Shown here: piece after piece, positions 45,567 through 63,634 of the stretch
How the letters are laid out: every line of letters begins with the position of its first letter
Position numbering within the stretch: position 1 is the first letter of the stretch
Assembly: GCF_900078335.1 (NCBI RefSeq)
Contig: NZ_FKBR01000012.1
Location: forward strand, 141,608 to 205,607
Direction: 5' to 3'
Origin: Bordetella trematum
GTDB lineage: Bacteria > Pseudomonadota > Gammaproteobacteria > Burkholderiales > Burkholderiaceae_B
Length of the DNA: 64,000 nucleotides
The notes under the pieces: generated by a model
What the model saw: the letters and a program-made list of their open reading frames with translations, nothing else
Told to the model about the DNA's origin: nothing
Databases searched by the model: none
Made by a program: the position numbers and the translations under genes

Positions 45567-46597
45567 AGCGTCCGCCCATACTCTCCCTGCGCCTGGCAAG
45601 CGCGATATGTCTGGCCGCCGGCAGCCTGTCGGCGCCCGGCTCAGCTGCGGCGGCAGCCGCCAACAGCTCGGTGAGGCTGTATGGCCTGGTCGATCTGGGC
45701 CTGGTCTATGAGCGCAAGAACGGCGAATCCAGCCTGCGCCAGAAGAGCGGGAACCAATCCGGCTCGCGCTGGGGGCTGCGCGGCAGCGAAGACCTGGGCG
45801 GCGGCTACCGCGCGGTGTTCCGCCTGGAAAGCGGCTTCAGCGCCAACAACGGCAAGCAGGCGCAAGGCCGCATGTTCGGACGCTGGGCCTATGTGGGCCT
45901 GGCCGGCGATTTCGGCGAGCTGCGCCTGGGACGCCAATGGGTCTACGGCTTCGAATGGGCCTCGGTAGGCAACCCGTTTGGCAGCGGCTGGAGCCAGGGC
46001 TCCAATAACGCGACGCTGGGCTACAACGACGGCGATTTCGGTAGTGGCGGGCGGGTCAACAACGGCGTGTTCTACACCACACCGCGCTGGCAAGGCTGGC
46101 AGCTGGGCGTGGGTTACAGCTTTGAAAGCGGCGACGACGACGCCTTCGCCACCGCCGCGCATGACCGGGTGCTGACGGCCGGCCTGCGCTACAACCGGGG
46201 GCCGCTGGCTGCCGCGCTCACCTACGAACGCCTCAATCCCAAGGCGGGCCTGCCCGACAAACGCGCCGCCACCAACCTGCAGCTGGCCGGCTCCTACGAT
46301 CTGGAGTGGATCAAGCTTTACGGCACCTACGGCAATCTGCGCCACCCGAATGCCGGCCCCTCACGCGGCGTGGAGCGCGTCAACAGCTTCATCGCCGGCG
46401 TCAGCGTGCCGGTCAGCGGCAGCGGCGAAGTGCTGGCCAACTACCAGCGCGCCACCAATTCGGACATCACCGGAGTGGCGTTGGGCTACCAGCACCGCCT
46501 GTCCAAGCGCAGCAATCTGTACGCCTACATCAATCGCCTGGACATTCAGCAGAGCCACACTCTGCAAGCCTCTCTGGGCATCAGGCATCAGTTCTGA
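45563..46597 (+). CDS. Outer-membrane porin linked to the ABC-hydrolase operon
   Basis: This 344-residue porin of the Burkholderiales trimeric type has a signal peptide (residues 1-31, ending GSAAAAAA). The mature part has NSSVRLYGLVDLGLVYERKNGES, internal strands such as SRWGLRGSEDLGGGYRAVFRLESGF, and a C-terminal phenylalanine (LGIRHQF). It overlaps the hydrolase stop by four bases. AAAAGGGG lies nine bases before the ATG. It probably admits the substrate of the operon across the outer membrane. Its last 10 bases overlap the end of the convergent AlgJ-like gene. Confidence 0.9.
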   Translation: MKRPPILSLRLASAICLAAGSLSAPGSAAAAAANSSVRLYGLVDLGLVYERKNGESSLRQKSGNQSGSRWGLRGSEDLGGGYRAVFRLESGFSANNGKQAQGRMFGRWAYVGLAGDFGELRLGRQWVYGFEWASVGNPFGSGWSQGSNNATLGYNDGDFGSGGRVNNGVFYTTPRWQGWQLGVGYSFESGDDDAFATAAHDRVLTAGLRYNRGPLAAALTYERLNPKAGLPDKRAATNLQLAGSYDLEWIKLYGTYGNLRHPNAGPSRGVERVNSFIAGVSVPVSGSGEVLANYQRATNSDITGVALGYQHRLSKRSNLYAYINRLDIQQSHTLQASLGIRHQF

Positions 46598-47754
46598 GGC
46601 ATGCCGAAAGCCGGCTTGTCGTCGTCGGTCAGCGGGGCCTGCAGGTCGCGCTCGTCGATTTCCCAGATGACCAGCCGCGGCGGCGTCTGTTTCCAGGCCG
46701 GGCTCTTGAAGTAGGCTTGGGCCGCGGCGCCGAACTTGGCGCCGTCGCGGGCGAAGTTGCCGATTTCGACGCCGAGCTCGCGCGCCAGTTGCGGCGCAAA
46801 CTCGGAGGTACGCGAAAAAGAGGTCCCGACCAGCGCCAGCGTGGGAGCGCCAGCGTCGCCGAATAGGGCATCGGCGTCATCGGCGGCGGCGGCACGCGGC
46901 ACATAGCGCTGCAGCGCCACCACATCGGTCTCGGGCTGCCAGCGCTGCGGCAGGCCGTCGATGCCCGCCAGACGCACCAGATCGCCCGGGCGCAGCGCCG
47001 GGGGCCCGGTGCTGACGTCGTACTCGCGCTCGGGCAGCAACGGCACGCCGGCGGCGCGCACCTGTTCGGCCACGGCGCGGGCCGCCGCCCCGGCTCCCGC
47101 CTGGCTCCAGTGCGAGTCGGCACGCAGGAACGCCTCCTGCTCACCGGCCTGCAGCGCGGGGGTCAGGTCCAGCACTTTGACGCCTTCGGCGCGCAGCATA
47201 TCGGCCCAGGCCTGCAGGCGCTGCTCGAAGGCTGCCGGACGATGCAGGCCGCAGAGCCGGTCCGCTTCGACCCGGCTTTTATCGGGCACCACCGCCACCA
47301 GCAGGTCCACGCCTTGCGTGGCCAGCGCCTGACGGGTCTGCAGCACGGTCTGCGCCCGGGCGCGCGCATTGGCCTCGGCCTGCGGGTAGACCTGCAATTC
47401 ATCGGCCAGAAACAGCCAGCCCGGGCAACCGGGGCGCACGCGCTCGCCCAGATCGCCCAGCGTCAGCCAGCCCAGCCCGCGCTGCAGCGTTGCGGCCTGG
47501 TTGCTGAAGGGCATGTCGCCCAGGCGTTGGGCGATGTCGTGGGTGACGCCGCCATCGAGCAGGCGCTGCATGGACAGGTTGTCGGGCAGCAGGCGATGCT
47601 CGCGCGACCACCAGGCATTGCTCAGGATGGCTGCCAGCATGAACAGCAGCAGCACCACGCCGGCCAGACGGCTGGCGCGCCGCGCGCGCTCGCCGGCATG
47701 GGCGGTAGGCGGCTTGGGGGGCATATCGGGCGGCATATCGCGTGGGATCGTCAT
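46588..47754 (-). CDS. wssI: AlgJ/AlgX-like O-acetyltransferase of the cellulose operon (WssI-type)
   Basis: This 388-residue protein has one N-terminal membrane segment (about residues 29-45) and a periplasmic SGNH-like domain. The catalytic D213 and H215 are in ADSHWS and S312 is in GTSFS, matching the AlgX/AlgJ arrangement. By analogy with the SBW25 wss operon it moves acetyl groups onto cellulose after transfer by the MBOAT protein. It is the last gene of the operon and starts 11 bases after the algI-type gene. Confidence 0.82.
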   Translation of the reverse strand: MTIPRDMPPDMPPKPPTAHAGERARRASRLAGVVLLLFMLAAILSNAWWSREHRLLPDNLSMQRLLDGGVTHDIAQRLGDMPFSNQAATLQRGLGWLTLGDLGERVRPGCPGWLFLADELQVYPQAEANARARAQTVLQTRQALATQGVDLLVAVVPDKSRVEADRLCGLHRPAAFEQRLQAWADMLRAEGVKVLDLTPALQAGEQEAFLRADSHWSQAGAGAAARAVAEQVRAAGVPLLPEREYDVSTGPPALRPGDLVRLAGIDGLPQRWQPETDVVALQRYVPRAAAADDADALFGDAGAPTLALVGTSFSRTSEFAPQLARELGVEIGNFARDGAKFGAAAQAYFKSPAWKQTPPRLVIWEIDERDLQAPLTDDDKPAFGMPQN

Positions 47755-47765
47755 GACATCCGGCC

Positions 47766-49175
47766 TCAGAACTGAAAGTAAAGGAAAGGCGCCGCGCCGC
47801 GCGAGGCGATCAAGGCATACGCCAGCAGGAAACCGGCCACCGGCCAGACGGCGCTGCACAGCACCACCAGGCGGCCCGGCGCGCGCTGCGACCAGGCCGG
47901 CAGCACCGCCGGCAGCACCACGCACACCATCGCCAGCACGAAAGCCAGGCCATGCACCGGGCGCAGCACGTAGTGCATGGTGTCGCTCAGGCCCCAGCCG
48001 TTGAGCCCGAACTGGCCGGCATACATGGTCAGCGCGGCATCGAAGTTGGCTGCCCGGAACAGGGTCCAGGCCAGCATCACAAACAGCAGAGTCAGTACCC
48101 GCGAAAACCAGCCCGGCAGCTCCGGCAGCCTGCAGCGCCCCCACAGCCGCCCGGCCGCCAGGGCCAGGCCGTGCGCCAGTCCCCAGAGCAGGAAGTTCCA
48201 GCTGTCGCCGCCATGCCACAGGCCGGCGATGCCCATCGTCAGCAGCAGGTTGCGATAGGTCTTCCAGGCGCCCAGGCGATTGCCGCCCATGGGAATGTAG
48301 AGATAGTCCCGGATCCAGCTGGACAGCGACATATGCCAGCGGCGCCAGAAATCCTGGATGCTGTGGGCCAGATAGGGATTGTTGAAGTTCTCGGGCAGGT
48401 GAAAGCCGATCATCAGGCCCAGCCCGATCGCCATGGCGCTATAGCCGGCGAAGTCGAAAAACAGCTGCAGCGAGTAGGCCAGACAACCCAGCCAGGCATC
48501 GGCCAGCGTGGGCTGGGACATGGCGAAGGCCGCGTCGGCCACCGGCGCCAGGGTGTCGGCCAGCAGCACCTTCATGCTCATGCCCACCATGAAGCGGCGT
48601 GCGCCCAGGCAGAAGTTCTGCCAGTCCATCACGCGGTTGACCATTTCCTTGTCGACCCAGGCCCAGCGGATGATGGGGCCGGCGATCAACTGGCCGAACA
48701 TGGCCTTGTAGGCGGCGAAGTCGATGAAGTTGCGCTCGGCGCGCACCTCCCGACGATAAACGTCGACCACATAGGAGATGGCCTGCAGCACGAAAAAGGA
48801 CAGGCCGGCCGGCAGGGCGATACGCTCCCAGGCCAGCGGGATGGCGCCAGCCATGCCCGCGATATCGTTGTACGTGGCAACCAGGATGTTGGCGTACTTG
48901 TACCAGCACAGGATGCCCACGTTGGCCACCATGAGCAGCACCAGCAGCAGCTTGCGGCGCCGGCCGCAGCGCCATTGCTCGATCAGCAGCGCACCGCCCC
49001 AGGCCGCAATCGTCACCGCCACCAGCAGCAGCAGATAGATGGGCTTGAGCCAGCTGTAGAACGCCCAGCTGCCCAGCAGCAAGGTGAAGTTCCGGCCGCG
49101 CTTGGGCGTCAGGACATAGACCGCGAGAAACAGCGGCAGAAACAGCGTCAGGAACTCTAGGGACGCGAAGACCAT
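47766..49175 (-). CDS. wssH: MBOAT acetyltransferase, AlgI-like (WssH-type)
   Basis: This 469-residue multi-spanning membrane protein belongs to the MBOAT family, like AlgI of alginate acetylation. The conserved histidine lies in GLWHGGDSWNFLLWGLAHG, and the family motif QDFWRRWHMSLSSWIRDYLYIPMGGNR is intact. It would carry acetyl groups from a cytoplasmic donor to the periplasm for polysaccharide acetylation. The start at 49175 gives MVFASLEFLTLFLP, the usual N terminus. An 87-base gap with a hairpin separates it from the algF-type gene. Confidence 0.9.
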   Translation of the reverse strand: MVFASLEFLTLFLPLFLAVYVLTPKRGRNFTLLLGSWAFYSWLKPIYLLLLVAVTIAAWGGALLIEQWRCGRRRKLLLVLLMVANVGILCWYKYANILVATYNDIAGMAGAIPLAWERIALPAGLSFFVLQAISYVVDVYRREVRAERNFIDFAAYKAMFGQLIAGPIIRWAWVDKEMVNRVMDWQNFCLGARRFMVGMSMKVLLADTLAPVADAAFAMSQPTLADAWLGCLAYSLQLFFDFAGYSAMAIGLGLMIGFHLPENFNNPYLAHSIQDFWRRWHMSLSSWIRDYLYIPMGGNRLGAWKTYRNLLLTMGIAGLWHGGDSWNFLLWGLAHGLALAAGRLWGRCRLPELPGWFSRVLTLLFVMLAWTLFRAANFDAALTMYAGQFGLNGWGLSDTMHYVLRPVHGLAFVLAMVCVVLPAVLPAWSQRAPGRLVVLCSAVWPVAGFLLAYALIASRGAAPFLYFQF

Positions 49176-49224
49176 GGCGACAGGCTCAGGAGCGGCGTGG
49201 GCCGGAAACAATCAAAGAGGGAAA

Positions 49225-49262: not shown

Positions 49263-49946
49263 TCAGCGCCCGACGCGATCCTCGGCGTGCAGCAGCCGCG
49301 GCCCCTGGGCCGACGGCAGCAGGAACACCGTATGGCGGTCGCCGGCCTGCAAGGTGCCCAGTTCCAGCACCTTGGGCAGCACCTGGCCGCCACAGGAGGC
49401 GCTCACGTTCAAGGCCACCGGATTGACCAGGCGACGCGCGGCCTGGCCCTGGGGGACGCGCTCGAACAGGGCCAGATTGCGGGGAGCGGCCACCAGGCCC
49501 GCATCGGCGCAGCCGGCGTCCAGGTTGTAGAAGGCGATCGACACCTTGGCGGCATTGAAGTCATCCGGCTGCTCACGCACCACCACCGTCTGCAGGCCGT
49601 CTTTGCCGGGCAGCCCGATCACCGAGGCGAACTCGCCGGGCTGCACCGTCACGTCGAGGTCCTGCCCCTGCCGGGCGCTTTCCAGGCGGCCCTGCATGCG
49701 GGCGCCACCGCGCACCGGCATGAACGCCGAGACCGGCTCGGCGGCGTCAAGATCGATGCGGCCTTGCGAGCCCTTGGCGCTCACGCCCATCGGCTGCTCG
49801 CCGCCGTTGACGAAACGCACGAAGGCGGCGTCCTCGGCCGGGCCGGTTTCATACAGCTGGATCGTGGCCGACATCGCCACGGGAGCAAGCAGCGCCAGGG
49901 TCAGGCCGAGCGCACCGCGCAGGGTCTTCAGGGAGAGAGTATTCAT
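49263..49946 (-). CDS. wssG: AlgF-like periplasmic acetylation protein (WssG-type)
   Basis: This 227-residue exported protein has a signal peptide (residues 1-27, LGLTLALLAPVAMSA). The mature part resembles AlgF: the family start ATIQLYETGPAEDAAFVRFVNG, and a second domain with NLALFERVPQG. AlgF partners AlgJ and AlgX in alginate acetylation. An ATG at 49970 that overlaps the stop of the preceding gene is an alternative start. The exact chemical role is unknown. Confidence 0.85.
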   Translation of the reverse strand: MNTLSLKTLRGALGLTLALLAPVAMSATIQLYETGPAEDAAFVRFVNGGEQPMGVSAKGSQGRIDLDAAEPVSAFMPVRGGARMQGRLESARQGQDLDVTVQPGEFASVIGLPGKDGLQTVVVREQPDDFNAAKVSIAFYNLDAGCADAGLVAAPRNLALFERVPQGQAARRLVNPVALNVSASCGGQVLPKVLELGTLQAGDRHTVFLLPSAQGPRLLHAEDRVGR

Positions 49947-49966
49947 CGTCTGGTTTCCGGAAACGC

Positions 49967-50629
49967 TCATGGCTTGCGCAGGGCCTGGACCACCGGCAGC
50001 CCGGCCATCTGCTTGGCGATGGCCTCGCCCCAGCTCTTGTAGCCGGCATTGGTGTAGTGCTGGCCATCCGTCGTGGCCCATTGCCCGGGCTTGGAAAACA
50101 CCGTCGAATCAATGTAGGTGCAGGGCGCGACGTTGTTCGACAGGAAGGCCGACACCTGTTTGACGCGGGCAAAGTTCTTCTTGTACTTGCCGCCCTCGGT
50201 GCCCCAGCCCGGACCGATCCAGACGCAGGCCGTGCCGGTGGCGGCGATGGCCTTGGTCAGGGCGGTGGTCTGCTGCCAGGCCCAGGTCTTGGGGAAGGCG
50301 GGATTGGTGTAGCCGGCCATGGTATCGCCCAGCACGATCACCACCAGATTCGGCTTGTCGGCGGCGATCAGCTCGGTGATGGGCCGGGTGGCGGCCTTGC
50401 TGCCGGTGAGTTCCAGCTTGCCATCGTTGCGGCGTTCGGCGCCCCCGCAGTTGCCGGGCACCGATTGGGTCCAGTCGCCGGCATGGCTGCCGCACACGCC
50501 GATGGTGTGGACCTGGGCGCCCTGTTTGACCAGATCGTCCTGCAGGGTGGTGACGAGGTAGCCGGGCGCAGCCAGGTGGCTGTCGCCCACCAGCAGGATG
50601 CTCAGACCGGCAAAAAGAGAAGTCAGCAT
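49967..50629 (-). CDS. wssF: SGNH/GDSL-type hydrolase of the cellulose operon (WssF-type)
   Basis: This 220-residue protein has the GDSL block VGDSHLA with nucleophile S17, the GDT block near residues 110-113, and the catalytic D188-x-x-H191 in TDGQHYTNAGY. In the wss operon of Pseudomonas fluorescens SBW25, WssF is the gene between bcsC and the algF homologue and helps acetylation. The protein starts almost directly with the catalytic strand and has no clear signal peptide unless MLTSLFAGLSILLV serves as one. GGAG lies eight bases before the ATG. Confidence 0.8.
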   Translation of the reverse strand: MLTSLFAGLSILLVGDSHLAAPGYLVTTLQDDLVKQGAQVHTIGVCGSHAGDWTQSVPGNCGGAERRNDGKLELTGSKAATRPITELIAADKPNLVVIVLGDTMAGYTNPAFPKTWAWQQTTALTKAIAATGTACVWIGPGWGTEGGKYKKNFARVKQVSAFLSNNVAPCTYIDSTVFSKPGQWATTDGQHYTNAGYKSWGEAIAKQMAGLPVVQALRKP

Positions 50630-53600: not shown

Positions 53601-54748
53601 CGAATGGCCTGCTCAACCAGGCCCCGCGCCGCCTGGGTGTCGCCACGCAACCGGGCGTGCTCGGCTTGCTCGAGCAGATTCCAATAGCGCGCCGAGCCCA
53701 GCGCGCGACGCCAGTCACGCCCGGCGCCGGGGCGCGTGGCCGCGCGGTTGAGCAGCTCCTGGGCCTCGCCGGGCTTGTTCTGCTGCAGCCGCACCAGCCC
53801 CAAGCCACCCAGCGCATCGGCGTCGTTGGGCGTGGCGCGCAGCTTTTCCTGGAAGGCGGTCTCGGCCGCCGCCAGATCGCCGCGCTTGAGTGCGGCGAAT
53901 CCGCGCGCCAGGCGCGGATCCTGGCGCCAGACGGGCGCTGACGCCGAACTGCGCGCACTGGCGGCCGCGCCAGTCTTGAGCGCGGTGCGAATTTCTTCAT
54001 CGTCGGGGTGCTGCTTGAGATAGGCCTCGAACAGCGGCTTGCTCCCGGGCCGGGCCGCTCCCATCCACAACAGGCCGGCGCGCCAGTTGTCGGTGGCATC
54101 GGCGCCGACATCCTTGCGCTGGGCGAGCTGCGACAGCAGACGCACGCCTTCCGCACGCCGTCCCTCGTCGCGGATCAGGTGCTTGGCCAAGGCCAATTGC
54201 ACGGCGCCATTGCCGGGGTTGTCGCGCGACAGACGCTCCAGGCCCTGGATCGCCCGCGGCATGCCGGCACGGGTGTAACCCAGCAAAGCGTAGTACTCCA
54301 GTGCCAGATCGCCTTGCGGCTCGCGGCCCTGCAGGGCCTGGTCATAGGCCTGGATCGCCTTGTCGGTCTCGCCGGCGGCGGCCAGCTGACGAGCGCGGTC
54401 GATGTCGCTGGCGCCCGGGCCGCTGGCCAGGGCGATATCCTGTTGCAGGCGCTGGGCATAGCGGCCGCCCGCCTCGAGCCGATTCAGGCGGCCCAGATAG
54501 TTCTGCGCATCGCCCAGACGCTTTTCACGCACCGCCGCCAGCCCCAGGCCGTAAAGCGCCTCCTGCTGGCTGGGATCGGACAGCAACAACTTCTCCCAGG
54601 CCTGGGCGGCGCGCTTGGCGTCTCCCTGGGCTTGCCAGTAGCGGCCCTGCTCCAACAGCGAGGCCGTGGCGCCGGGTTGCGCCCAGCCGGCCTGATGGAT
54701 CAGGGCGGCCAGCAAACCGACGGCCAGTTTGTGGCGATTCAAGGACAT
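50657..54748 (-). CDS. bcsC: Cellulose synthase outer-membrane export subunit BcsC
   Basis: This 1363-residue protein has a signal peptide (about residues 1-24), a long run of TPR repeats (about 25-900), a linker rich in alanine and proline (about 900-1010), and a C-terminal beta-barrel domain of the BcsC family. It guides the glucan through peptidoglycan and out of the outer membrane. The start at 54748 has GGGAG seven bases upstream; 54760 is also possible. It overlaps bcsZ by ten bases. In SBW25 naming it is wssE. Confidence 0.93.
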   Translation of the reverse strand: MSLNRHKLAVGLLAALIHQAGWAQPGATASLLEQGRYWQAQGDAKRAAQAWEKLLLSDPSQQEALYGLGLAAVREKRLGDAQNYLGRLNRLEAGGRYAQRLQQDIALASGPGASDIDRARQLAAAGETDKAIQAYDQALQGREPQGDLALEYYALLGYTRAGMPRAIQGLERLSRDNPGNGAVQLALAKHLIRDEGRRAEGVRLLSQLAQRKDVGADATDNWRAGLLWMGAARPGSKPLFEAYLKQHPDDEEIRTALKTGAAASARSSASAPVWRQDPRLARGFAALKRGDLAAAETAFQEKLRATPNDADALGGLGLVRLQQNKPGEAQELLNRAATRPGAGRDWRRALGSARYWNLLEQAEHARLRGDTQAARGLVEQAIRADGKPAAAYNAMARVFASEGDMANAEKSYRYVLARHKNDPEALRGLVDILAQTNRLDQAQKLIADLTPAQRAELGDLSRLRASALASDARNAEQRGDAAGARALLERANAADPDNPWLTYELARLMLRNGERARAHSLMDGVLRARPDDPDAYHAAALLASEQGDWGKAYDLLARVPANRRNAGIDQFQRRVWLHEQVAQASRMAQIGDVEPARRQLATLKAHAGGDPQLLGAIAQAYVDAGDKAEALALMRPAVGNSQTASADTLLPYAAVLLKSGEDAQAAEVLRQLQKMPLSADQHRGFQDLVSLYTVRQAEATRQRGDLVAAYDILQPVLKRRPDDTQAQGALARMYASAGDRDKAMEIYRSLQTRDPDNAQLQLAVAGIAYEADDWRSAEAALNQALRLAPRDPEILAGAARIYRARGRTGRAAELYQQAIAVQQDRQGAMDLVARARPGGGASDNDNPFVGLPGQRLSSAQSAPELGDMLDEVLGEPVAPATALASVPAEADRYPIVAPVTRSGASAEAGQAPVAEAPLAAPAPAAPAAIALRAGPGTASVAPAASLAAPQVGALPEAATTPGQTQRTLRQELDEVMQDRSAEVRAGVFVRSNNGESGLSKVTQVDTPMEALIPAGDGKVALRVTPVTINAGSIGDNYWRTSRFGGGPVAALRQEQGLTGGPGRQRDRGVGLSAGYEMQGLSADIGVTPLGFEYSNLVGGLRLNGAINRSAGTWYSLDLSRRAVTDSLLSFAGARDNRTDQRWGAVTSNGLAGQIGADNGDYGVYAYGSWHKLVGHNVRSNTRTEAGAGIYWNLVRESDRQLTAGLNLGAIFYDNNQRFYTYGHGGYFSPQQFYALSLPITWAQRSGRFSYKLQGSVGLRHFKEDDANYFTNNSGMQARAASAARRMGGSAVYDGQSRTGIGYNLSAAGEYQLNNHWFLGGSLGMDNASDYRQYVGGLYLRYAFYPMTRPMEMPLNPYQSPYMR

Positions 54749-55947
54749 TTTTTCTCCCACTCCAATGTCACGCGGCCGGATGCGGCGAAGCGATATCGCT
54801 GCTCGAACCAGCCCAGGCCAAACAGGCTGAGCACATAGTCGTAATAACGGGGTTGCGCATCCTGCGGCTGGCCGGGAGCCAGGGCGGCGCGCACTCTCTG
54901 CAACTGCGCCTGCAGCAGCGCGTTCTGGCCGCGCGCCTGCAGATACGGCAGCAGCGCGGCCGAGAAACCAAAGGGCCCCTCGCCTTGCAGCTCGCCGCTA
55001 TCGACCTGCACCGCTTCGGGGGGCATGCCCCGGGCGGCCAGGGCCTCTTCCATTCCATACAGCGCCGCCAGCAGAGGCTGGGCGGCGGGATCGGTCGGCG
55101 GCGTCATGCCTGCCCACAGATAGTTACGGATCGCATCATAGCTGCCGCGCGCGCCATACAGGGGGTCGACCTCGAAGCGCCCCTGCGGCGGTGACGTTTC
55201 CTCGCCACGGTAGGCGATCCAGTCGGCGATATAGCCGCGCGGCGCATTGGCCTGAACCATCTGCACGGTATGGCCGGCCAGCACCTCCCAGGGACCCTGG
55301 GCGTCGGCCTGGGCCAGGCGACGCAGCAGCGGCACCGGCAGATAGCTCGGGTTCAGCCGCCAGAGCGGCCCGGGCTGGACAAAGCCGGCCGGCCCCGGCA
55401 GCAGCATGGCGCCAAAGCCAGGCAGCGCGGTGATTTCGCGCTTGCGGATCTGCGCCAGCAGGGCCTGCGCGTCGCGGGTGTAGTCCGGGCGACGCCACAG
55501 CCTTGCCGCTTCAAGCAGGCCATAGGCAAACCACAGATCGGCATCGGAGGCCGCATTGCGATCCAGCACGCCCCAGCTGCCGTCCTCGCGCCGGCCCCAG
55601 GACCAGGCCGGCAGGCCAGGCTCCTCGGCCTGGGCGCCGCCCAGGTTGGCCTGGCTCCAGCGCCACAACCTCTCGAAACTGTCGGGGTCGTTGGCGACCA
55701 GGGCGAAGAACATCCCATAGGACTGCCCCTCCGAGGTCGTCATGCTCTGCGGCGTACTGGTATCGACCACCCTGCCGTCAGGCTGCACGAAACGCACCAG
55801 GAAATCCTCCCAGTGCGGCCAGGCATAGGCGCTGCAGGCCGCCGGGCGCGGCTGGGCCTGCGCCCCGGCCGCCAAGGCGAAGGCGCACAGCACGGCACCT
55901 GCGTGCCGTACCCCGATACGCCATCCCCGGCCCCAGACTTGCCGCAT
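54739..55947 (-). CDS. bcsZ: Periplasmic endo-1,4-beta-glucanase BcsZ (GH8)
   Basis: This 402-residue cellulase has a signal peptide (residues 1-32, AFALAAGAQAQ). The GH8 acid E73 is in SEGQSYGMFFAL, and the family signature ASDADLWFAYGLLEAARLW holds D135 and D137. It trims or untangles nascent cellulose in the periplasm and is needed for normal export in other bacteria. The ATG overlaps the stop of the second bcsB by one base (TAATG). In SBW25 naming it is wssD. Confidence 0.95.
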   Translation of the reverse strand: MRQVWGRGWRIGVRHAGAVLCAFALAAGAQAQPRPAACSAYAWPHWEDFLVRFVQPDGRVVDTSTPQSMTTSEGQSYGMFFALVANDPDSFERLWRWSQANLGGAQAEEPGLPAWSWGRREDGSWGVLDRNAASDADLWFAYGLLEAARLWRRPDYTRDAQALLAQIRKREITALPGFGAMLLPGPAGFVQPGPLWRLNPSYLPVPLLRRLAQADAQGPWEVLAGHTVQMVQANAPRGYIADWIAYRGEETSPPQGRFEVDPLYGARGSYDAIRNYLWAGMTPPTDPAAQPLLAALYGMEEALAARGMPPEAVQVDSGELQGEGPFGFSAALLPYLQARGQNALLQAQLQRVRAALAPGQPQDAQPRYYDYVLSLFGLGWFEQRYRFAASGRVTLEWEKKCP

Positions 55948-58325
55948 TATTCCGCCTTGCGACGACGCAGCAAGGCCCTGAGCAGCGCGATCAGCACGAT
56001 CAGCGCCATCAGGCCGACCAGGCCGATGATGATCAGGCGCTTGAGGGTGTATCCCGGCAGCACCGAGGAAATCCACCAATCGATGCGCTTGAGCAGCGGT
56101 AGCTCGCCAACGTAGTACTGGTGGTCGCCCACCAGCGCATCGACCTGCTTGCCGCGAATGACCGACAGGCTGCCCTGTACCGGCTTTTCGTAGCCCTCGC
56201 CGCCTTCGATGGCCGCGACCGCGTCTTTCAGCCCCTCGGGCTGCTTGCTGGCCACCACCACCACGCTGCGCTTGGGCGCCAGGGGCGACTCGAAGCCGGC
56301 CACCAGCGCACTGGCGCCGGCGCTGTCGTAGGCCACGCCGGTGCGCGCAGCGCGCGTGTCCAGGCGCGGATCGCTGTGCGTCCAGTCAGCGGCGCGGTAG
56401 ATCAGGTCGGACACGCCAAAGCGGGCCTGTTTGTCGTAGTTGCCCGGCAGGTGCGCGGCCCATTCTTTCAGCAGGCCTTCGTCCTCACCGGTGGCGATGA
56501 TCAACAGATCTTTGCCGGCGGCCTGATCGCCCAGCGGCTTGCCCTGCAGCACGCTCACGCCAACGGCGGGATAGCCGGTGGACTCGCCCATGCGGCCCAT
56601 CAGGTCGAGGTAGGCGGTATAGGCCTGCGGGCCGCCTTGCTTGCCCATGACCACGGCGGTTTCAGACAGGTCGGCCATGCGCGTGAACGGGAAGCCCGCC
56701 TCGCTGAAGGCGCGCAGATCCGGCATGGCCTTGAAGTGCGGATAGGCCGTCAGATCGATGGTCGACTCCGGTTCGATCATGCCGCGCACGTTGTCCACGA
56801 TGATGTCGCGGCACTCGCCCTGCTTGATGTAGTCGTACATGTAGCGGAACTGCAGCTGACCGCGCGACTTCAAGCTGTCCAGGGGTACGTCCAGCTGTGC
56901 GCGCATGGGCAGGCTTTCGTCGGGCAGCACCTGGCCGCGCAGCTTCTCGCCATCTTCGATGCGTTCCAGCGCGAACAGCGGCATCGACTTGACGAACTCG
57001 TCATTGACGCCGAACAGCAGCGCCGAATTGGTCGAGGTCGGCTGCGGCGTGTAGCGGTAGCGCAGGTCGATGGGGACCTTTTTTTCCTGCCAGCCGAACA
57101 GGTCGGGCGCCACGCGCACGTCCATGCGGATCACATCCGGGCTGAAGCCGGAGACGTTCAGGCGCTTGGCGTCGATCAGTTCGCCGAAGCTCACCGGACG
57201 GTCGCTGCGCAGCCACTTGGGCGCATCGTAGGGCTTGCGCGGCGCGATGTCGGCCAGGCGCGTGATCGTGGCCTGCTGGCCGCTGAGCGTCTGGCTGCCC
57301 AGCGCCAGGGCGGCGGCGGCCTGCTTGAGCTCCTTGCCGTCGCGCCCCATCACCAGCAGCAGTTTGCCGTTGGCGTCGTTGGGATTGGTAATCACGGCCA
57401 GCGTCGGTCCATTGACCGGCGCTGTCTGCAGCCCGGTGATGGCCGCGCCGCTGGCGAACACCACGCCATTGCCCTTGGCAGGCAGTTCGGACACCGCGGC
57501 CGGGAAGCTCGCGCCCCGGTAGCCCGCCAGAGCCCCGAACCAGGAAGACAGCGTGCCGGCCGCTTCCAGCGCAGCGTCATCCGGCGCGCCCTGGAACACA
57601 AAGGGCAGCGTCAGGCGACGCATGTCGCGCGGATCGAAAAAGGGCAGCGGCAGGTTGGCCAGGTCATTGGGCAAGGCCAGCGGCGCGGTGGCCAGCTCCA
57701 GCGCGCTGTGATTGCTGATGTTGGCCCACAGACTGGAGTGCAGCGGATCTTCGCAGTCGAGCGTGTAATGCCCGACAAGCTGCAGACGCAGATCGTTGTA
57801 GGGCGTGATCAGGTAAGGCGGGATCTCGACCGTGTGCTGCAGATTCTTGCCCGCGGTTTCGCGCGGCACCTCCAGGGTCGCGGCGACCTCGTCATTGACC
57901 AGCACATTGATGTGCGACAGATCGCTCAACAGAGCCGGCGAATAGGCGTAGCGCAGATCCACGCGCGCGCCGGTGACGACTTCGTCGTTGCGCACGCTGA
58001 AGTTGAGCGTGTTGCTGCCGTCCACGCCGCGCAGATTGAGCGGATACTGCGCTCCCAGCTGCTTGAAGGAATAGCGCTGATCGGCCTTCCACGGCTCGAC
58101 CGGCGGCTGACCCTCGGCGGGCAGCGCGCCGGCGACATCGGCGGCATCGGCCAGCGTCACCGGCGGCGGCGGCAAAGCCGTTTCGTCGGCATGCGCCAAC
58201 ACGGAAAAGCTGGCCAGCAGCAGCAACGGCAGGCGCGCCAGGGCATGCCGCGGACGGCGAGCTTGCGCAGAGAGTTCAGGCATCGTCATGGTCGGCTTGG
58301 AAATAGAGCGGAAGGTCTTGGTCAT
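55947..58325 (-). CDS. bcsB: Second cellulose synthase regulatory subunit BcsB
   Basis: This 792-residue periplasmic protein is anchored by a C-terminal membrane helix (about residues 760-782, LIIIGLVGLMALIVLIALL). It has a signal peptide and two alternating carbohydrate-binding and flavodoxin-like domain pairs. It is a close paralogue of the gene just upstream: HYTLDCEDPLHSSLWA, ALAGYRGASFPAA, GKLLLVMGRDGKELKQAA and the RYRYTP block recur in the same order. It begins two bases after the first copy. No frameshift or stop is seen in either copy. Standard bcs operons have one bcsB. Confidence 0.93.
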   Translation of the reverse strand: MTKTFRSISKPTMTMPELSAQARRPRHALARLPLLLLASFSVLAHADETALPPPPVTLADAADVAGALPAEGQPPVEPWKADQRYSFKQLGAQYPLNLRGVDGSNTLNFSVRNDEVVTGARVDLRYAYSPALLSDLSHINVLVNDEVAATLEVPRETAGKNLQHTVEIPPYLITPYNDLRLQLVGHYTLDCEDPLHSSLWANISNHSALELATAPLALPNDLANLPLPFFDPRDMRRLTLPFVFQGAPDDAALEAAGTLSSWFGALAGYRGASFPAAVSELPAKGNGVVFASGAAITGLQTAPVNGPTLAVITNPNDANGKLLLVMGRDGKELKQAAAALALGSQTLSGQQATITRLADIAPRKPYDAPKWLRSDRPVSFGELIDAKRLNVSGFSPDVIRMDVRVAPDLFGWQEKKVPIDLRYRYTPQPTSTNSALLFGVNDEFVKSMPLFALERIEDGEKLRGQVLPDESLPMRAQLDVPLDSLKSRGQLQFRYMYDYIKQGECRDIIVDNVRGMIEPESTIDLTAYPHFKAMPDLRAFSEAGFPFTRMADLSETAVVMGKQGGPQAYTAYLDLMGRMGESTGYPAVGVSVLQGKPLGDQAAGKDLLIIATGEDEGLLKEWAAHLPGNYDKQARFGVSDLIYRAADWTHSDPRLDTRAARTGVAYDSAGASALVAGFESPLAPKRSVVVVASKQPEGLKDAVAAIEGGEGYEKPVQGSLSVIRGKQVDALVGDHQYYVGELPLLKRIDWWISSVLPGYTLKRLIIIGLVGLMALIVLIALLRALLRRRKAE

Positions 58326-58327
58326 GT

Positions 58328-60652
58328 TCACGATCCCAGGCGGCGTTGCGCACGGGCGCGCAGAGACAGATAAAGCAGCACGGCAATGACCAGTGCGCTG
58401 AGCAGCAAGGCCCCCACCAGAATGAGCGGGTGGCGGGCAAAGAACCATTGCAGATTGAGCCAGGCGGGCAGCGACCCGACGTAGTAACTCTGTTCGTCGA
58501 GCACGCTGCGGACCTGCTCGCCCTGGATCAGGGTCAGGTTGCCGGCGATGCGTTCCTGGCTGCCCGCCGCCGCCCCGACCTCGACCGGGTTGGCCTGCAC
58601 GGCGGCCACGGCCGCCGCCAGGCCCTGGTTGTCGCTGCCGGACACCACGACCACGCTACGCCCGCTCTTGAGGGGCGATTCGAGGCCGGCCAGCGTGCCC
58701 AGCGCGCCGCTGCCGGCGTAAGCCAGCGTGGCGGCGGCCGGCCGTTGACGCTCGCGCGGATCCGGACTGACCCAGGCCGCAACGCCGGAGAACCACCCCG
58801 ACAGGCTGAACTTGCGCGCCTTGTCGCCCGCGCCATCCGGCACCACGTCGCGCCAGGTCTTGAGCAGGGGCTGGTTGTCGCCCGAGGCCAATACCAGCAG
58901 ATCCTTGTCGGCCAGCGAAGCCGCCTGAGCGGCCTGCGCCACCACCACGCCGGTGGCCGGATAACCGGTGGACTGGCCCATGACGCCCAGCAGATTGAGA
59001 TAGGCCGTCATGTCGGCCGTGCCGGCGTCATCGGGCATGATGACGGCCGTCTGCGACAGGTCCGCCATGCGGGTGAACGGGAAACCCGCCTCGGCAAACA
59101 GCGACAGATCCGGCATGGCCGCATACTTGGGCAGGCCCGAGATGTCGATGGTCGAGGCCGGATCGATGGCGCTGAAGGCGTTATCGACGATGCTGTTCTG
59201 ACATTCGCCCAGCTTGGCGTACTCGTAGCGATACTGGAACTGCAGATCGGCCAGCGGCGGCAGCAGATAGGTCGGCACCATCACGCGCGCCGAGCCCTGG
59301 GCGGCGGGCACGCCGCGCAGGCTGGTGAACATGCGATCGCGCGGATCATCGAGCGAAAAGCTGCGAACCAGCTGTCCGCCGGCCGACATTTCCAGCACCG
59401 ACTGCTGCGCGCCGGGACGCGGCGTATAGCGGTAGGTGAGGTCCACCGGCACGCCGTCGCTGTGCCAGCCGAACAGGCCCGGCGGCATGCGCAGGTTCAG
59501 GCGGATGGGAGGCGGCTCGTGGCCGGCCACGTTGAGCTCGCGCGCCGGCACCAGCTCGCCAAAGCGCACCGCCCGGTCGCTGCGCAGCCAGTTGGGTGCG
59601 TCAAAGGGCTGGCGCGGCTGCGGCGTCACGATCTGGGTGATGTCGGCAAGCGGACCGCTGAGCGCTTCCCGGCCCAGGGTGAGCGCCATGGCGGCCTGTT
59701 TCAGCTCCTTGGCATCGCGTCCCATCACCAGCAACAGCTTGCCGTAACGATCCTGCGGATGGTTCACCATGGCCAGCGCCGGGCCCTTGATCGGCGGCAA
59801 CGTCACGCCGGCGATCGAGTCTCCCGGCAGAGCGAACACCACGGCATTGCCCTTGGCCGGCAGGGATTGCTCCAGGCCGGCGAAATGCGCGCCCCGGTAG
59901 CCCGCGAGCGCGCCGAACCACGAGGCCACCATGCCGGCGCTTTCCAGGCGCGCCGCATCGGGGCGACTGCCCAGCACGAAAGGCAGCTCCAGCCGGCGCA
60001 CGTCATGGCTGTCAAAGAACGGCGCCGGCAGCAGCGCGAGGTCATTCGGCAGCTCCACCGGCACCACGGTCAGCTCCAGCGTGCTGCGCCCGGCGACCGT
60101 CGCCCACAGGCTGGAGTGCAGCGGATCCTCGCAACCGAGGGTGTAGTGCCCGATCAGTTGCACGTCGAGCCGGTTGTAATCCTGCAGCGCCTGCACCGGC
60201 AGTTCGACGGTAGCCTCGACCGCTTGCGCCGAGGCCTGCCTGGGCAGCGCGATGCTGCCTGCGACTTCGCCATTGAGCAGGATCTTCAGGTGCGACAGAT
60301 CCGGCAGCAAGGCCGGCGAATAGGCATAGTCCAGATGGACACGCGCCCCCAGCACGCTCTGGTCGCGCCGCGGGCTGAAGCCCAGGCCGTTCAGGCCGCT
60401 GACGCCACGCAAGGCCAGCGCCTGCTGGCCGCTCAGGCGCGACAGGGGGATACGGTAGGTGATCGCATCCTGAGGCAAGGCCTCCCCCTGAACAGACGGC
60501 GTCATGGGCGCCTGCGCAGGCGGAGTCTGCGCGGCAGCGCCACCCGCGCCCAGCGCCAGCAGCGTGCTCACCAGGACGGGCAACAGTCGGAGTCGGCGTG
60601 GCGGGCGCGCGGGCGCGTCGGGCCTGGAGATCATCGTTGTATCGTCCTTCAT
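58328..60652 (-). CDS. bcsB: First cellulose synthase regulatory subunit BcsB
   Basis: This 774-residue periplasmic subunit pairs with BcsA and guides the glucan chain after it leaves the membrane. A signal peptide spans about residues 1-42 (LLPVLVSTLLALGAGGAAAQ). A C-terminal membrane helix lies near 745-767 (PLILVGALLLSALVIAVLLYL). The BcsB motifs HYTLGCEDPLHSSLWA, ALAGYRGAHFAG and GKLLLVMGRDAKELKQAA are clear. The ATG overlaps the bcsA stop by four bases, so this copy is the one translationally coupled to the catalytic subunit. Confidence 0.94.
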   Translation of the reverse strand: MKDDTTMISRPDAPARPPRRLRLLPVLVSTLLALGAGGAAAQTPPAQAPMTPSVQGEALPQDAITYRIPLSRLSGQQALALRGVSGLNGLGFSPRRDQSVLGARVHLDYAYSPALLPDLSHLKILLNGEVAGSIALPRQASAQAVEATVELPVQALQDYNRLDVQLIGHYTLGCEDPLHSSLWATVAGRSTLELTVVPVELPNDLALLPAPFFDSHDVRRLELPFVLGSRPDAARLESAGMVASWFGALAGYRGAHFAGLEQSLPAKGNAVVFALPGDSIAGVTLPPIKGPALAMVNHPQDRYGKLLLVMGRDAKELKQAAMALTLGREALSGPLADITQIVTPQPRQPFDAPNWLRSDRAVRFGELVPARELNVAGHEPPPIRLNLRMPPGLFGWHSDGVPVDLTYRYTPRPGAQQSVLEMSAGGQLVRSFSLDDPRDRMFTSLRGVPAAQGSARVMVPTYLLPPLADLQFQYRYEYAKLGECQNSIVDNAFSAIDPASTIDISGLPKYAAMPDLSLFAEAGFPFTRMADLSQTAVIMPDDAGTADMTAYLNLLGVMGQSTGYPATGVVVAQAAQAASLADKDLLVLASGDNQPLLKTWRDVVPDGAGDKARKFSLSGWFSGVAAWVSPDPRERQRPAAATLAYAGSGALGTLAGLESPLKSGRSVVVVSGSDNQGLAAAVAAVQANPVEVGAAAGSQERIAGNLTLIQGEQVRSVLDEQSYYVGSLPAWLNLQWFFARHPLILVGALLLSALVIAVLLYLSLRARAQRRLGS

Positions 60653-62844
60653 TGCTTGGAAGAAGCGGCGGCGGGGCGTCGCAGCGCGGCTCGCCCGCGG
60701 TCGCGCAGCTGGCGCAGCAGCAGCGAGAAGCCGCGCCCACCCACGGAGGAAATCTGCTGCAAAGCAGCCAGCGGAGAATCGGGGCGGTTGCGGCCCCAGG
60801 TCGTGGCCCAGGCATCGGCGCGCCCGAAGGTCATCTGCGCCAGCTCGGCTTCCTGGGCCAGCGTCAGCTCATGGAAGCGAACCCCCAGCCGGCCATCGCG
60901 GCTGAAGGTCACCCGCGTCGGGAAGACGGCCTCATCCTCGTTGCGGAACAGCGACACCAGCACGTCGCTGCCGGTCGGCACCGTCGCGCCGGACGGCAGT
61001 TTCAGGCCCAGACCGCCTTGCGAGAAATCGGTCGTCTGACAGGCCACCGTACGGCCATCGGGCAGCGTCAGCATGGCGGGCAGCTCGATCGCCACGCGCG
61101 GGGTGGTGCGCAACTGGCGCGCCTCGCCGGCCACCGCAACGCTGGCGCTGGTCATCACGATGTTGTAGAGGGTCCAGCCCAGGTTCAGCAGGATGGTCAT
61201 GCGCGCATCGCCGCCGAAACCCACGGCCAGGCCGATGACACCGATGATCAGGCCCAGCACGTTCAGGCAAAGCAGCACCACGTAAGGACGCGCCAGCCCC
61301 CAGTCGAAGTACGACTCCTCGATCACGCCCCCCTTGGCGGTCACGTTGAAGCTCGCGCTCTTGGGGCTGATCAGGGTCTGCAGGGCCGGGCGCATGATGT
61401 ACCAGGCCAGCACCGACTCGTACACTTCGTTCCAGAAGGAATGGCGAAAGCGTCCCTGGATGCGCGAGCCTGTCATGCTGGCCACGATGATGTGGGGCAG
61501 CGCATAGGCGGCCACCATGACGGCCGAGGCCTGGAACACGCTGGCATGAAAGAACAGGTAGGCCAGGGGCGCGGTCAGGAACACCACCCGCGGCAGGCCG
61601 AAGAAAAAGTGCAGCATCGCGCTCAGGTAGCACAGACGCTGCCCCAGTTGCAGCCCGCGACCCAGCAGCGGATTGTTGACCCGGATGATCTGGGCCATGC
61701 CGCGCGCCCAGCGGGTGCGCTGGCCGATGTGGCGCGAGAGGTTCTCCGTGGCCAGGCCGGCCGCCTGCGGCACCGCCAGATAGGCGGTGTTGTAGCCCTT
61801 GCGGTTCATCTTCAGCGCCGTCAGGGCATCCTCGGTCACGCTCTCGGTGGCCACGCCGCCCACGTCCAGCAGCGCCGAACGCCGCATGACGGCGCAGGAA
61901 CCGCAGAAAAAGGTGGCGTTCCAGAGATCGTTGCCATCCTGGACCACCCCGTAGAACAGCTCGCCTTCGTTGGGAACGTTGCGAAACGTGCCCAGGTTGC
62001 GCTCGAAAGGATCGGGCGAGAAGAAGACGTGCGGCGTCTGCAGGAGCGCCAGGCGCGGATCCTTCAGGAACCAGCCCATGCAGACCTGCAGGAAGGACCG
62101 CACCGTGACGTGGTCGCAGTCGAACACCACGATGTACTCGCCGTCGGTCTTCTCCAGCGCGGCATTGATATTGCCGGCCTTGGCATGACGGTTGTTGTCG
62201 CGGATCAGATAGTGGGCGCCGGCCTCTTCGCAGAACGCGCGGAACTCCGGCCGCCGGCCGTCATCGAGCACATAGACCTTCAGGCGATCAGCCGGCCAGT
62301 CCAGCGCCAGCGCGGCCAGCACCGACTGGCGCACCATGTCCAGCGGCTCGTTATAGGTCGGGATGTAGACATCCACCGTCGGCCATTGCGCCGTGTCCTG
62401 CGGCAAAGGCACCGGCCGGCGATGCAGGGGCCAGGCCGTCTGGAAATAGCTCAGCAACATCACCGTGAGCGCATACAGCTCGGCCAGCAGCAGGCCATAG
62501 CCGAAAAAGGCGTCCAGCAGGGTTTCAAAGCCCAGTGTCTCGGTGATGCGCCAATACATATAGCGCAGCGAGGTCGTGACCGACAGCACCACCATGGTGA
62601 GGATGGCCAGCCGGCCGGCCACGCGGCGCAGCACCAGCGCAGCCACCATGCAGGTCACCGCAAAGACCAATTGCTGATAAAGGCCCATCTCGACCGCGAC
62701 CGCCAGCACGAACAGCACCATGGCCAGCAGAAAGGCCAGAAAGCGCACCAGGCCCGAGCGCCACAGCCGCCAGCCCAGCAGTTGGTCGCCCCAGCGCGAC
62801 AGACGCCCCTGAGACGGCGTGAAGGAATCCTGGCGGGTGCTCAT
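60649..62844 (-). CDS. bcsA: Cellulose synthase catalytic subunit BcsA (UDP-forming)
   Basis: This 731-residue inner-membrane family 2 glycosyltransferase makes beta-1,4-glucan from UDP-glucose and extrudes it. The catalytic motifs are D194-D195 (DDGRR), D242/D244 (DCD), TED (337-339) and QRTRW (375-379). A C-terminal PilZ domain has R579-x-x-x-R583 (RTTPR) and D606 in DFSQGGLGL, so c-di-GMP should activate it. The start at 62844 overlaps the bcsQ stop (ATGA); the open frame extends to 62883. In SBW25 naming it is wssB. Confidence 0.96.
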   Translation of the reverse strand: MSTRQDSFTPSQGRLSRWGDQLLGWRLWRSGLVRFLAFLLAMVLFVLAVAVEMGLYQQLVFAVTCMVAALVLRRVAGRLAILTMVVLSVTTSLRYMYWRITETLGFETLLDAFFGYGLLLAELYALTVMLLSYFQTAWPLHRRPVPLPQDTAQWPTVDVYIPTYNEPLDMVRQSVLAALALDWPADRLKVYVLDDGRRPEFRAFCEEAGAHYLIRDNNRHAKAGNINAALEKTDGEYIVVFDCDHVTVRSFLQVCMGWFLKDPRLALLQTPHVFFSPDPFERNLGTFRNVPNEGELFYGVVQDGNDLWNATFFCGSCAVMRRSALLDVGGVATESVTEDALTALKMNRKGYNTAYLAVPQAAGLATENLSRHIGQRTRWARGMAQIIRVNNPLLGRGLQLGQRLCYLSAMLHFFFGLPRVVFLTAPLAYLFFHASVFQASAVMVAAYALPHIIVASMTGSRIQGRFRHSFWNEVYESVLAWYIMRPALQTLISPKSASFNVTAKGGVIEESYFDWGLARPYVVLLCLNVLGLIIGVIGLAVGFGGDARMTILLNLGWTLYNIVMTSASVAVAGEARQLRTTPRVAIELPAMLTLPDGRTVACQTTDFSQGGLGLKLPSGATVPTGSDVLVSLFRNEDEAVFPTRVTFSRDGRLGVRFHELTLAQEAELAQMTFGRADAWATTWGRNRPDSPLAALQQISSVGGRGFSLLLRQLRDRGRAALRRPAAASSKQ

Positions 62845-63617
62845 GAGCGGCTCTCGGCGTCGCGCAATTGCTGCAACAACCATTGGCCGGCCGCCAGCAG
62901 CTCATTGCTGGACTGGCTGTACGGCGTGTTGTCGATCACCGTCTTGCCGAAGGCCAGCGCTTCGGCCACCGCCAGGTCACGATGGACCGAGGCTACGGCG
63001 CGGTCGCCCAACATGCTGCGAATGACCCGCAGAGCATCCTTGGACAAGGGCGAACTGCCATCGGCCTGATTGATCAGGTAGGCGTGGCCCAGAAACTCGG
63101 GGCGGCTTTCGCAGTACTGCGCAATCAAGCCTTCCATGAGCGGCAGCGTGGCAAACGAGGCAGCGTCGGCCAGCGTGACCACCAGCACGATATCGGCGCA
63201 GGACAGCGCCTGACGCAGATAGACCGACGGCCCCGGCGGGGTATCCATCAACACCACCGTCGAGGGCCCGAGGTCCAGCGCGCGCAGATGGCGCGCGAGC
63301 CAGTGAGGATCATCCTGCATCTGGCGCTCCAGGGTCTGACGGTCGTCTTCGTTGACCTGACCGAAAGGCAGCAGGTGCACGCCGCCCTCCCCCAACACGC
63401 TGATGTCGCGCCAGCGCGTGCCTGCCACGCTGGCGCGCGCCAGTCCGCTGATGCCCGACTGGCGCTCGGCGCCCAGATGCAGCCGCAAGGCGTTCTGCGG
63501 ATCCAGATCCACCAGCAGCGCAGGCTGGCCCGCCTGCCGCAAGGCCACGCCGAGATTGGCCGTGACCGTGGTTTTACCGACTCCGCCTTTGGCGGACACA
63601 ATGGCTACCGTTTTCAT
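62841..63617 (-). CDS. bcsQ: MinD/ParA-like ATPase BcsQ (WssA-type)
   Basis: This 258-residue deviant Walker A ATPase has AKGGVGKTTV with K10 and K15, VDLDPQN, and MDTPPGPSV. BcsQ proteins are needed for cellulose secretion and, in E. coli, help place the complex at the cell pole. Its stop overlaps the bcsA start by four bases. It follows bcsP after 17 bases. The ribosome site is weak. Confidence 0.92.
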   Translation of the reverse strand: MKTVAIVSAKGGVGKTTVTANLGVALRQAGQPALLVDLDPQNALRLHLGAERQSGISGLARASVAGTRWRDISVLGEGGVHLLPFGQVNEDDRQTLERQMQDDPHWLARHLRALDLGPSTVVLMDTPPGPSVYLRQALSCADIVLVVTLADAASFATLPLMEGLIAQYCESRPEFLGHAYLINQADGSSPLSKDALRVIRSMLGDRAVASVHRDLAVAEALAFGKTVIDNTPYSQSSNELLAAGQWLLQQLRDAESRS

Positions 63618-63634
63618 TTTCTTGCCAACTGAGA

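Follow-up and report, generated by a model that had tools for sequence, protein, structure and literature searches.

The 64,000-nucleotide stretch of the Bordetella trematum genome analyzed here (assembly GCF_900078335.1, contig NZ_FKBR01000012.1, positions 141,608 to 205,607; hereafter, the window) carries a cellulose synthase (bcs) operon with two bcsB genes placed side by side, bcsB1 and bcsB2, whose products we call B1 and B2. The comparison of both proteins with their relatives suggests that this is an old pair in which the roles of BcsB have, on balance, probably been divided, B1 being the synthase-bound copy and B2 taking the other collar positions and those facing BcsC.

The map of positions used for this reading comes from the type II system of E. 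coli, where six copies of one BcsB are found per BcsA and the FD1 domain of protomer n contacts the FD2 domain of protomer n+1 (PMC11470070, PMC11379886). Protomer 1 inserts its tail anchor in the groove formed by the transmembrane segments TM1-3 of BcsA, and presents its FD1 to the FD2 of protomer 2 (PMC11470070).

Two intact and diverged bcsB genes

The relevant features of the two genes are the following:

58328..60652, minus strand: bcsB1, 774 residues, matching PF03170 over its full length; likely true start at 60634, judged from the spacing in relatives
60173..60196, minus strand: B1 residues 153-160 (VQALQDYN), altered, corresponding to the BcsC-docking loop of E. coli in the alignment to E. 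coli BcsB 161-168
58331..58465, minus strand: C-terminal tail anchor of B1, with the signature HP...Y..LRARA.RRL kept
55947..58325, minus strand: bcsB2, 792 residues, matching PF03170 over its full length; likely ATG at 58325, the open reading frame (ORF) listed to 58448 being an upstream extension
57795..57818, minus strand: B2 residues 170-177 (PYLITPYN), a BcsC-docking loop like that of nearby single-copy BcsB proteins
55950..56096, minus strand: C-terminal helix of B2, hydrophobic, without the tail-anchor signature

A preliminary description of this DNA, made from the sequence alone, had regarded both genes as intact but clearly diverged, and this holds. Both ORFs are open, each copy matches positions 3-606 of the 606 of the BcsB model PF03170 (720.9 bits for B1 and 758.4 bits for B2, the latter as the longer ORF), and no other match to this model was found in the whole genome. 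The two proteins are also above the cut-off of NF008330 and match the structures PDB 9fmt and 6yg8 (E-values of about 1e-112 for B1 and about 1e-122 to 1e-121 for B2). Judged by eye, both have a signal-peptide-like N-terminus, and a C-terminal hydrophobic helix is present in 44/44 B1 and 43/43 B2 sequences examined. B1 and B2 share 48% identity over 707 residues.

The C-terminal anchor is kept in B1 and drifts in B2

The domains were compared in 27 B1, 27 B2, and 18 nearby single-copy BcsB proteins (singles), leaving out the pair of locus L051, which is frameshifted (the fetched loci are designated here by L numbers). Along the periplasmic body, mean identity to the singles is lower for B1 than for B2 (CBD1, 0.41 and 0.54; FD1, 0.49 and 0.54; CBD2, 0.41 and 0.51; FD2, 0.42 and 0.48, respectively). 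In the membrane helix it is B1 that stays closer to the singles, with a mean identity of 0.40 vs 0.23 for B2, the singles showing 0.44 among themselves. A motif-free scan placed the strongest window of B2-over-B1 departure at the C-terminal anchor (E. coli residue 765), the helix excess of B2 departure being matched in size by 7/720 circular shifts.

An anchor signature defined on the first set of sequences itself, i.e., an aromatic residue at position 763 together with L766, A770, and R773 (E. coli numbers), is present in 27/28 B1, 0/27 B2, 18/18 near singles, and 10/15 distant singles. The reduced combination A770 plus R773, picked after the second set (the Paraburkholderia group described below) had been inspected, is found in 28/28 B1 of the first set and 16/16 of the second, in 0/27 and 0/16 B2, and in 31/33 and 47/49 singles. 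These counts leave out the B2 of L051 and, among the singles, the partial sequence L164_1; in the second set, the identical sequences L110_1 and L174_1 each contribute to the count. The signature of the BcsA-docking anchor is thus absent from 43/43 B2 despite their hydrophobic helix, B2 being a BcsB by sequence and by descent.

The ratio of nonsynonymous to synonymous substitution rates (dN/dS) between close species pairs follows the same pattern. In the anchor helix it is 0.142 for B1, 0.558 for B2, and 0.188 for the singles, and in the body 0.157, 0.107, and 0.113, respectively. Fisher tests on the underlying counts gave p=0.002 for the helix of B1 vs B2, p=0.015 for the helix of singles vs B2, and p=0.0001 for the body of B1 vs B2; they rest on six B1/B2 pairs, one of which shares a branch with another, and on four pairs of singles in which one row is used twice. 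In the five pairs that share no branch, nonsynonymous/synonymous differences in the helix are 5/18 for B1 and 35.5/33.5 for B2. Across nine species pairs, the B1 helix is the better conserved one in eight and ties with that of B2 in the ninth (p=0.008), the body of B2 is the better conserved one in 8/9 (p=0.04), and CBD2 and FD2 are better conserved in B2 in 9/9 (p=0.004). A tenth pair, L054-L056, was dropped because it shares branches in the B2 tree, where the B2 of L056 groups elsewhere; with this pair included, the helix favors B1 by 9 to 0 and one pair ties (p=0.004), and the body favors B2 by 8 to 2 (p=0.11).

These substitution patterns indicate purifying selection on the tail anchor of B1 and a faster divergence of its periplasmic body. 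B2 keeps its body, and its membrane helix seems to be required only to be hydrophobic.

The BcsC-docking loop and the FD1 domain

In E. coli, the first tetratricopeptide repeat (TPR) of BcsC docks on BcsB residues ~162-166 and 207-210, and does so on the terminal protomer only (PMC11379886). The corresponding loop, scored as hydrophobic residues at 163 and 164 and T/S at 165, is present in 26/28 B2, 18/18 near singles, and 9/15 distant singles of the first set, and in 2/28 B1. In the second set it is kept in 16/16 B2 and 11/16 B1. Further windows of strong B1 divergence lie at E. coli residues 447, 639, and 498.

FD1 is the body domain of B1 that has diverged least relative to B2, with a mean loss difference of 0.23 vs 0.74 elsewhere in the body, a modest signal since 39/647 circular shifts were as low; the L051 pair was left out here as well. 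A low divergence of FD1 in B1 would be expected if protomer 1 offers its FD1 to a neighbor and has its FD2 free, but alone this is weak evidence.

A third BcsB without anchor

Two loci, L061 and L063, have the gene order Q-A-B1-B2-Z-C-B3-C', in which a third BcsB (B3) directly precedes a second bcsC:

L061:2169-4394, minus strand: third BcsB
L063:15502-17790, plus strand: third BcsB

Both B3 proteins fall in the B2 clade of a tree of 91 BcsB sequences, and that of L061 matches PF03170 positions 4-606. They have a signal-peptide-like start and a C-terminus without a hydrophobic helix, the mean hydropathy over 19 residues peaking at 0.91 and 0.69 within their last 90 residues, compared with at least 1.82 in B2. 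There is no bcsA between B3 and the second bcsC, and both genomes have, farther on, a distinct bcs operon that includes a bcsA and a BcsB of its own (L062, L064). A BcsB of this kind, lacking a BcsA-docking anchor and yet paired with BcsC, would fit what is proposed here for the B2 class.

Distribution and age of the pair

The tandem bcsB pair is old. Within the genus, 9/15 genomes have BcsB and each of these nine has two copies; within the family, a side-by-side pair was found in 26/229 genomes, that of the window included. In two more genomes of the family (G145 and G150; loci L069 and L070) the two bcsB copies are parted by BcsD-, BcsP-, and second bcsQ-like genes. An order-level sample yielded BcsB at E <= 1e-30 in 45/399 genomes, with an adjacent pair in 0/40 of the BcsB-bearing genomes outside the family. 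In a phylum-level sample, BcsB was found in 67/396 genomes, G713 being the only one outside the family with an adjacent pair. In this genome, from another class of the same phylum, the tandem (L199) consists of two divergent BcsB-like genes located at the end of a contig, and it looks independent.

Both samples missed a Paraburkholderia-type group, which was found when named genomes were scanned (the best 80 of 119 relatives, giving 78 loci) and their genes called. Among these best 80 of 119 relatives there are at least 32 tandem loci, from Bordetella, Achromobacter, Pusillimonas, Parapusillimonas, Castellaniella, two Alcaligenaceae, and the Paraburkholderia group. The latter, our second set, accounts for at least 16 of them and comprises Paraburkholderia, Burkholderia sp. 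Ax-1719, Robbsia, and Pararobbsia. Several of these loci come from genomes already present in the family survey, and only part of the BcsB-bearing genomes of the family were fetched as loci. In the later loci, 33/115 BcsB sequences were removed as copies of first-set sequences, and 17/98 loci had no separately labelled BcsB ORF. In the one of these 17 that was inspected, L104, a single ORF (L104:4295-8821) matches both BcsA and BcsB, i.e., a fusion, and the same may apply to other loci of Undibacterium and Caulobacter in which BcsB has no ORF of its own. In L051 the second bcsB is interrupted, its match being in two pieces (L051:7992-9650 and beyond), and the first bcsB is open.

Phylogeny and origin of the pair

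In the 91-BcsB tree, 25/28 first copies group together (support 92) and 28/28 second copies form a separate clade (support 99), which also includes both third copies. Considering only side-by-side pairs, the second gene belongs to the B2 clade in 26/26 and the first to the B1 clade in 25/26, the remaining one, L060_1, joining B1 in a body-only tree. This tree, in which the anchor was removed, groups 27/27 B2 (support 98) and 25/27 B1 (support 96) in one clade each, with L069_1 and L070_1 outside the B1 clade. The two subtrees mirror each other mostly, although incompletely, since the B1 and the B2 of L056 take different places. The pairs of the Paraburkholderia group are nested next to L045, which belongs to the genus of the window, suggesting transfer of the whole operon. 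All these analyses used chosen subsets: 88 rows for the body-only tree, 45 for a bcsQ-related tree, 44 for the joint-clade test, and 40 and 37 for the BcsA and BcsC trees.

The preliminary description had proposed a phylogeny of both copies and had considered a very recent duplication in this strain. The copies are old and sit in separate clades, and all the BcsB-bearing genomes of the genus have two, so that such a duplication is excluded. A simple sister duplication is rejected as well: in the 44-row tree, from which L069 and L070 were left out, B1 (support 97) and B2 (support 96) are one clade each, and a joint B1 plus B2 clade vs single-copy BcsB is rejected by the approximately unbiased test (p-AU 0.0055). 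The non-sister position of B1 and B2 may reflect either a duplication predating the split from some single-copy operons, or an operon fusion, or a fast B1 branch that misleads the tree.

A fusion of two operons instead of a duplication inside one, the function of each copy then following that of its donor operon, is compatible with the functional readings weighed below, and we regard it as rather doubtful. The rejected joint clade speaks for it, and so does the gene order Q1-A-B1-D-P-Q2-B2-Z-C of L069 and L070, which have two operon heads and one bcsA (L069:2598-12811 and L070:2790-12730, with BcsD and BcsP confirmed by Pfam in L069 only). Nevertheless, BcsA of 15/17 tandem operons forms one clade (support 99), the BcsA and BcsC trees give no clean two-donor signal, the Q placements are supported at just 81-83, and the deep position of B1 may come from its long branches.

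The operon in the window

Reading along the minus strand, the order is bcsQ, bcsA, bcsB1, bcsB2, bcsZ, bcsC, and then acetylation genes at the F, G, H, and I positions:

62841..63617, minus strand: bcsQ, above the cut-offs of TIGR03371 and PF06564
60649..62883, minus strand: bcsA, cellulose synthase with a PilZ domain (TIGR03030 above cut-off; PF07238)
54739..55947, minus strand: bcsZ, GH8 endoglucanase, above the cut-offs of PF01270 and NF008305
50657..54748, minus strand: bcsC, TPR protein with outer-membrane barrel (PF05420)
49967..50629, minus strand: wssF-position gene, SGNH-like by eye, without Pfam match
49263..50081, minus strand: AlgF/WssG-like ORF (PF11182, 19.3 bits, below the cut-off of 34.4)
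47766..49211, minus strand: WssH-like MBOAT acyltransferase ORF (PF03062 above cut-off)
46588..48219, minus strand: WssI-like AlgX-type acetyltransferase (PF16822 above cut-off), the ORF exceeding the domain

The genes downstream of bcsC constitute a wss-type set for acetylated cellulose, in which the MBOAT and AlgX-like members are above cut-off, the AlgF-like one is sub-threshold, and Pfam gives no match for the F-position gene. Upstream of bcsQ, the same contig carries a BcsP-like gene, whose N-terminus is BcsR-like (PF10945), and a BcsD gene (PF03500), which places the operon among the BcsD/P/Q systems of type I or hybrid kind. The BcsP-like gene (window 63577-64000 and beyond) contains a long repetitive region rich in alanine, proline, and valine. 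A bcsZ match was found in 0/16 tandem loci of the Paraburkholderia group (L130-L135, L137-L142, L144-L146, and L155) and there was none in L045; in the four loci inspected (L131, L139, L146, and L045) the B2 and bcsC frames overlap, leaving no space for this gene.

Regarding spacing, the view that only the first copy is coupled by overlap to bcsA needs correction. A 4-base overlap is possible in the window, and a true bcsA-B1 overlap exists in other relatives such as L045 and L046, but it depends on the start codon chosen. In six relatives (L040, L041, L043, L044, L047, and L049) there is no ATG at the bcsA stop and one lies 14 bases beyond, with the AGGA also seen in the window in L043, L044, and L049; in the window the equivalent start is 60634. 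The ATG of B2 lies 2 bases past the B1 stop in the window and in 12/13 loci compared from the Bordetella/Achromobacter group, L045 being the exception, which makes an exclusive coupling of the first copy doubtful. For these reasons, the use of translational coupling as a clue to stoichiometry was dropped, since no ratio can be read from a start-dependent overlap and a 2-base gap.

Proposed roles of B1 and B2 and alternative explanations

According to the division of roles that we favor, B1 would be a dedicated protomer 1, with its tail anchor in BcsA and needed for BcsA catalysis, and its FD1 would be offered to the FD2 of the next protomer, a B2. B2, with an anchor that seems to have lost the capacity to fill the groove of BcsA, would occupy the remaining collar positions, including the terminal protomer that tethers BcsC. 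The resulting hetero-oligomer would be an ordered collar that always begins at the synthase and always ends at BcsC. The mixed crown of two BcsB versions suggested in the preliminary description fits the reciprocal decay and can be made specific in this way, with B1 at the synthase and B2 elsewhere, although no structure or stoichiometry was found for it. The retention, loss, and selection described above are read in the sequences, whereas the positions in the complex, the collar of a Bordetella-type system, and all the functions would hold by analogy with the E. coli structures. The stricter version, in which the polarized collar is obligately hetero-oligomeric, with B1 as starter, B2 freed from the synthase, and a soluble anchorless BcsB serving the second BcsC in some relatives, is put forward tentatively, its chances being somewhat below even.

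Several observations weigh against the division of roles. In the Paraburkholderia group, whose 16 pairs entered after the motifs were set, the four-residue anchor signature fails in B1 (0/16) as it does in B2 (0/16), because residue 763 is Gly in these B1; moreover, helix identity to the singles is equal for both copies (0.294 for B1 and 0.302 for B2), and the docking loop is retained in most of these B1 (11/16). The A770 plus R773 pair, which does separate them, was chosen late, the FD1 signal is modest, and distant singles often fail the motifs too (anchor kept in 10/15, loop in 9/15). In addition, BcsA and BcsB are 1:1 in samples of Rhodobacter sphaeroides and Gluconacetobacter hansenii (PMC11470070), and the operon is of the type I or hybrid kind, whereas the collar is known to us only from the type II system of E. 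coli.

These last points, with a collar unproven in the group of the window, leave room for two separate assemblies, in which B1 would bind BcsA 1:1 and B2 would form a periplasmic collar or chaperone with BcsC without ever touching B1. The loss of the BcsA-type anchor in B2 and the anchorless B2-class protein next to a second bcsC, from which no bcsA separates it, agree with this arrangement; we consider it unlikely, given that a hydrophobic anchor is kept in 43/43 B2 and that FD1, the face for protomer 2, is the best-kept body domain of B1, if modestly so. That both copies have the full domain set and bodies under purifying selection (dN/dS of 0.157 and 0.107) would also be explained if B1 and B2 were interchangeable and kept for dosage or for differing conditions. 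This is very improbable in view of the different regions reciprocally lost across an old split, and of a gene order so constant that the second gene is of the B2 clade in 26/26 pairs and the first of the B1 clade in 25/26.

A specialization of one copy for the acetylation machinery, e.g., B2 recruiting WssH/WssI, had been contemplated in the preliminary description as a contact of one copy with the acetylation proteins. The H/I genes do accompany the pair in 38/43 fetched tandem loci, the window not being counted (22/27 in the family and 16/16 in the Paraburkholderia group); some of these stretches end at contig ends, and the H/I genes of L061 lie in the next fetched stretch, L062. However, 11/18 nearby single-BcsB loci have them too, so the pair is not needed for acetylation, and the tandem locus L066 has none of the F, G, H, and I genes in its fetched 20 kb. 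Besides, the helix of B2, a natural contact site, is poorly conserved among B2 proteins. We therefore find the proposal unsupported and give it hardly any credence.

Comparison with known systems

The tandem arrangement itself has been published: a tandem wssC (bcsB) was reported for a single strain, Bordetella avium 197N, and called unique (Bundalovic-Torma et al., 2020, PMC7112194), a report of which the preliminary description was unaware. The two genes of B. avium 197N are arranged in the same way, within an acetylated-cellulose operon of like kind, and in the accessible text of that report the copies are not compared and no role is given to either. Our literature search, which covered few subscription papers, returned this one report of the arrangement and no role for the pair, and in the same literature we found no earlier description of its breadth, its age, the reciprocal decay, or the anchorless third class. 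The complementary decay of B1 and B2, as read from the alignments, is new with respect to the published tandem report.

In R. sphaeroides and G. hansenii, the BcsB tail anchor completes the BcsA channel, and the role proposed here for B1 would be similar; their samples have one BcsB per BcsA, and a second kind of BcsB is not mentioned in the available text (PMC11470070). The E. coli type II complex shares the BcsB fold by sequence, and its tail anchor, FD1:FD2 contacts, and BcsC docking provided our position map, but it includes BcsE/F/G, whereas the Bordetella operon has BcsD, BcsP, and acetylation genes. Since one E. coli gene supplies all six BcsB positions, the synthase-bound, collar, and BcsC-binding roles are not genetically separable there. 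In the tandem pair, evolution appears to have separated the synthase-bound role from the collar and BcsC-binding roles, and this allows one to ask whether the collar serves synthesis, export, or modification of cellulose, and whether it exists in BcsD-type systems.

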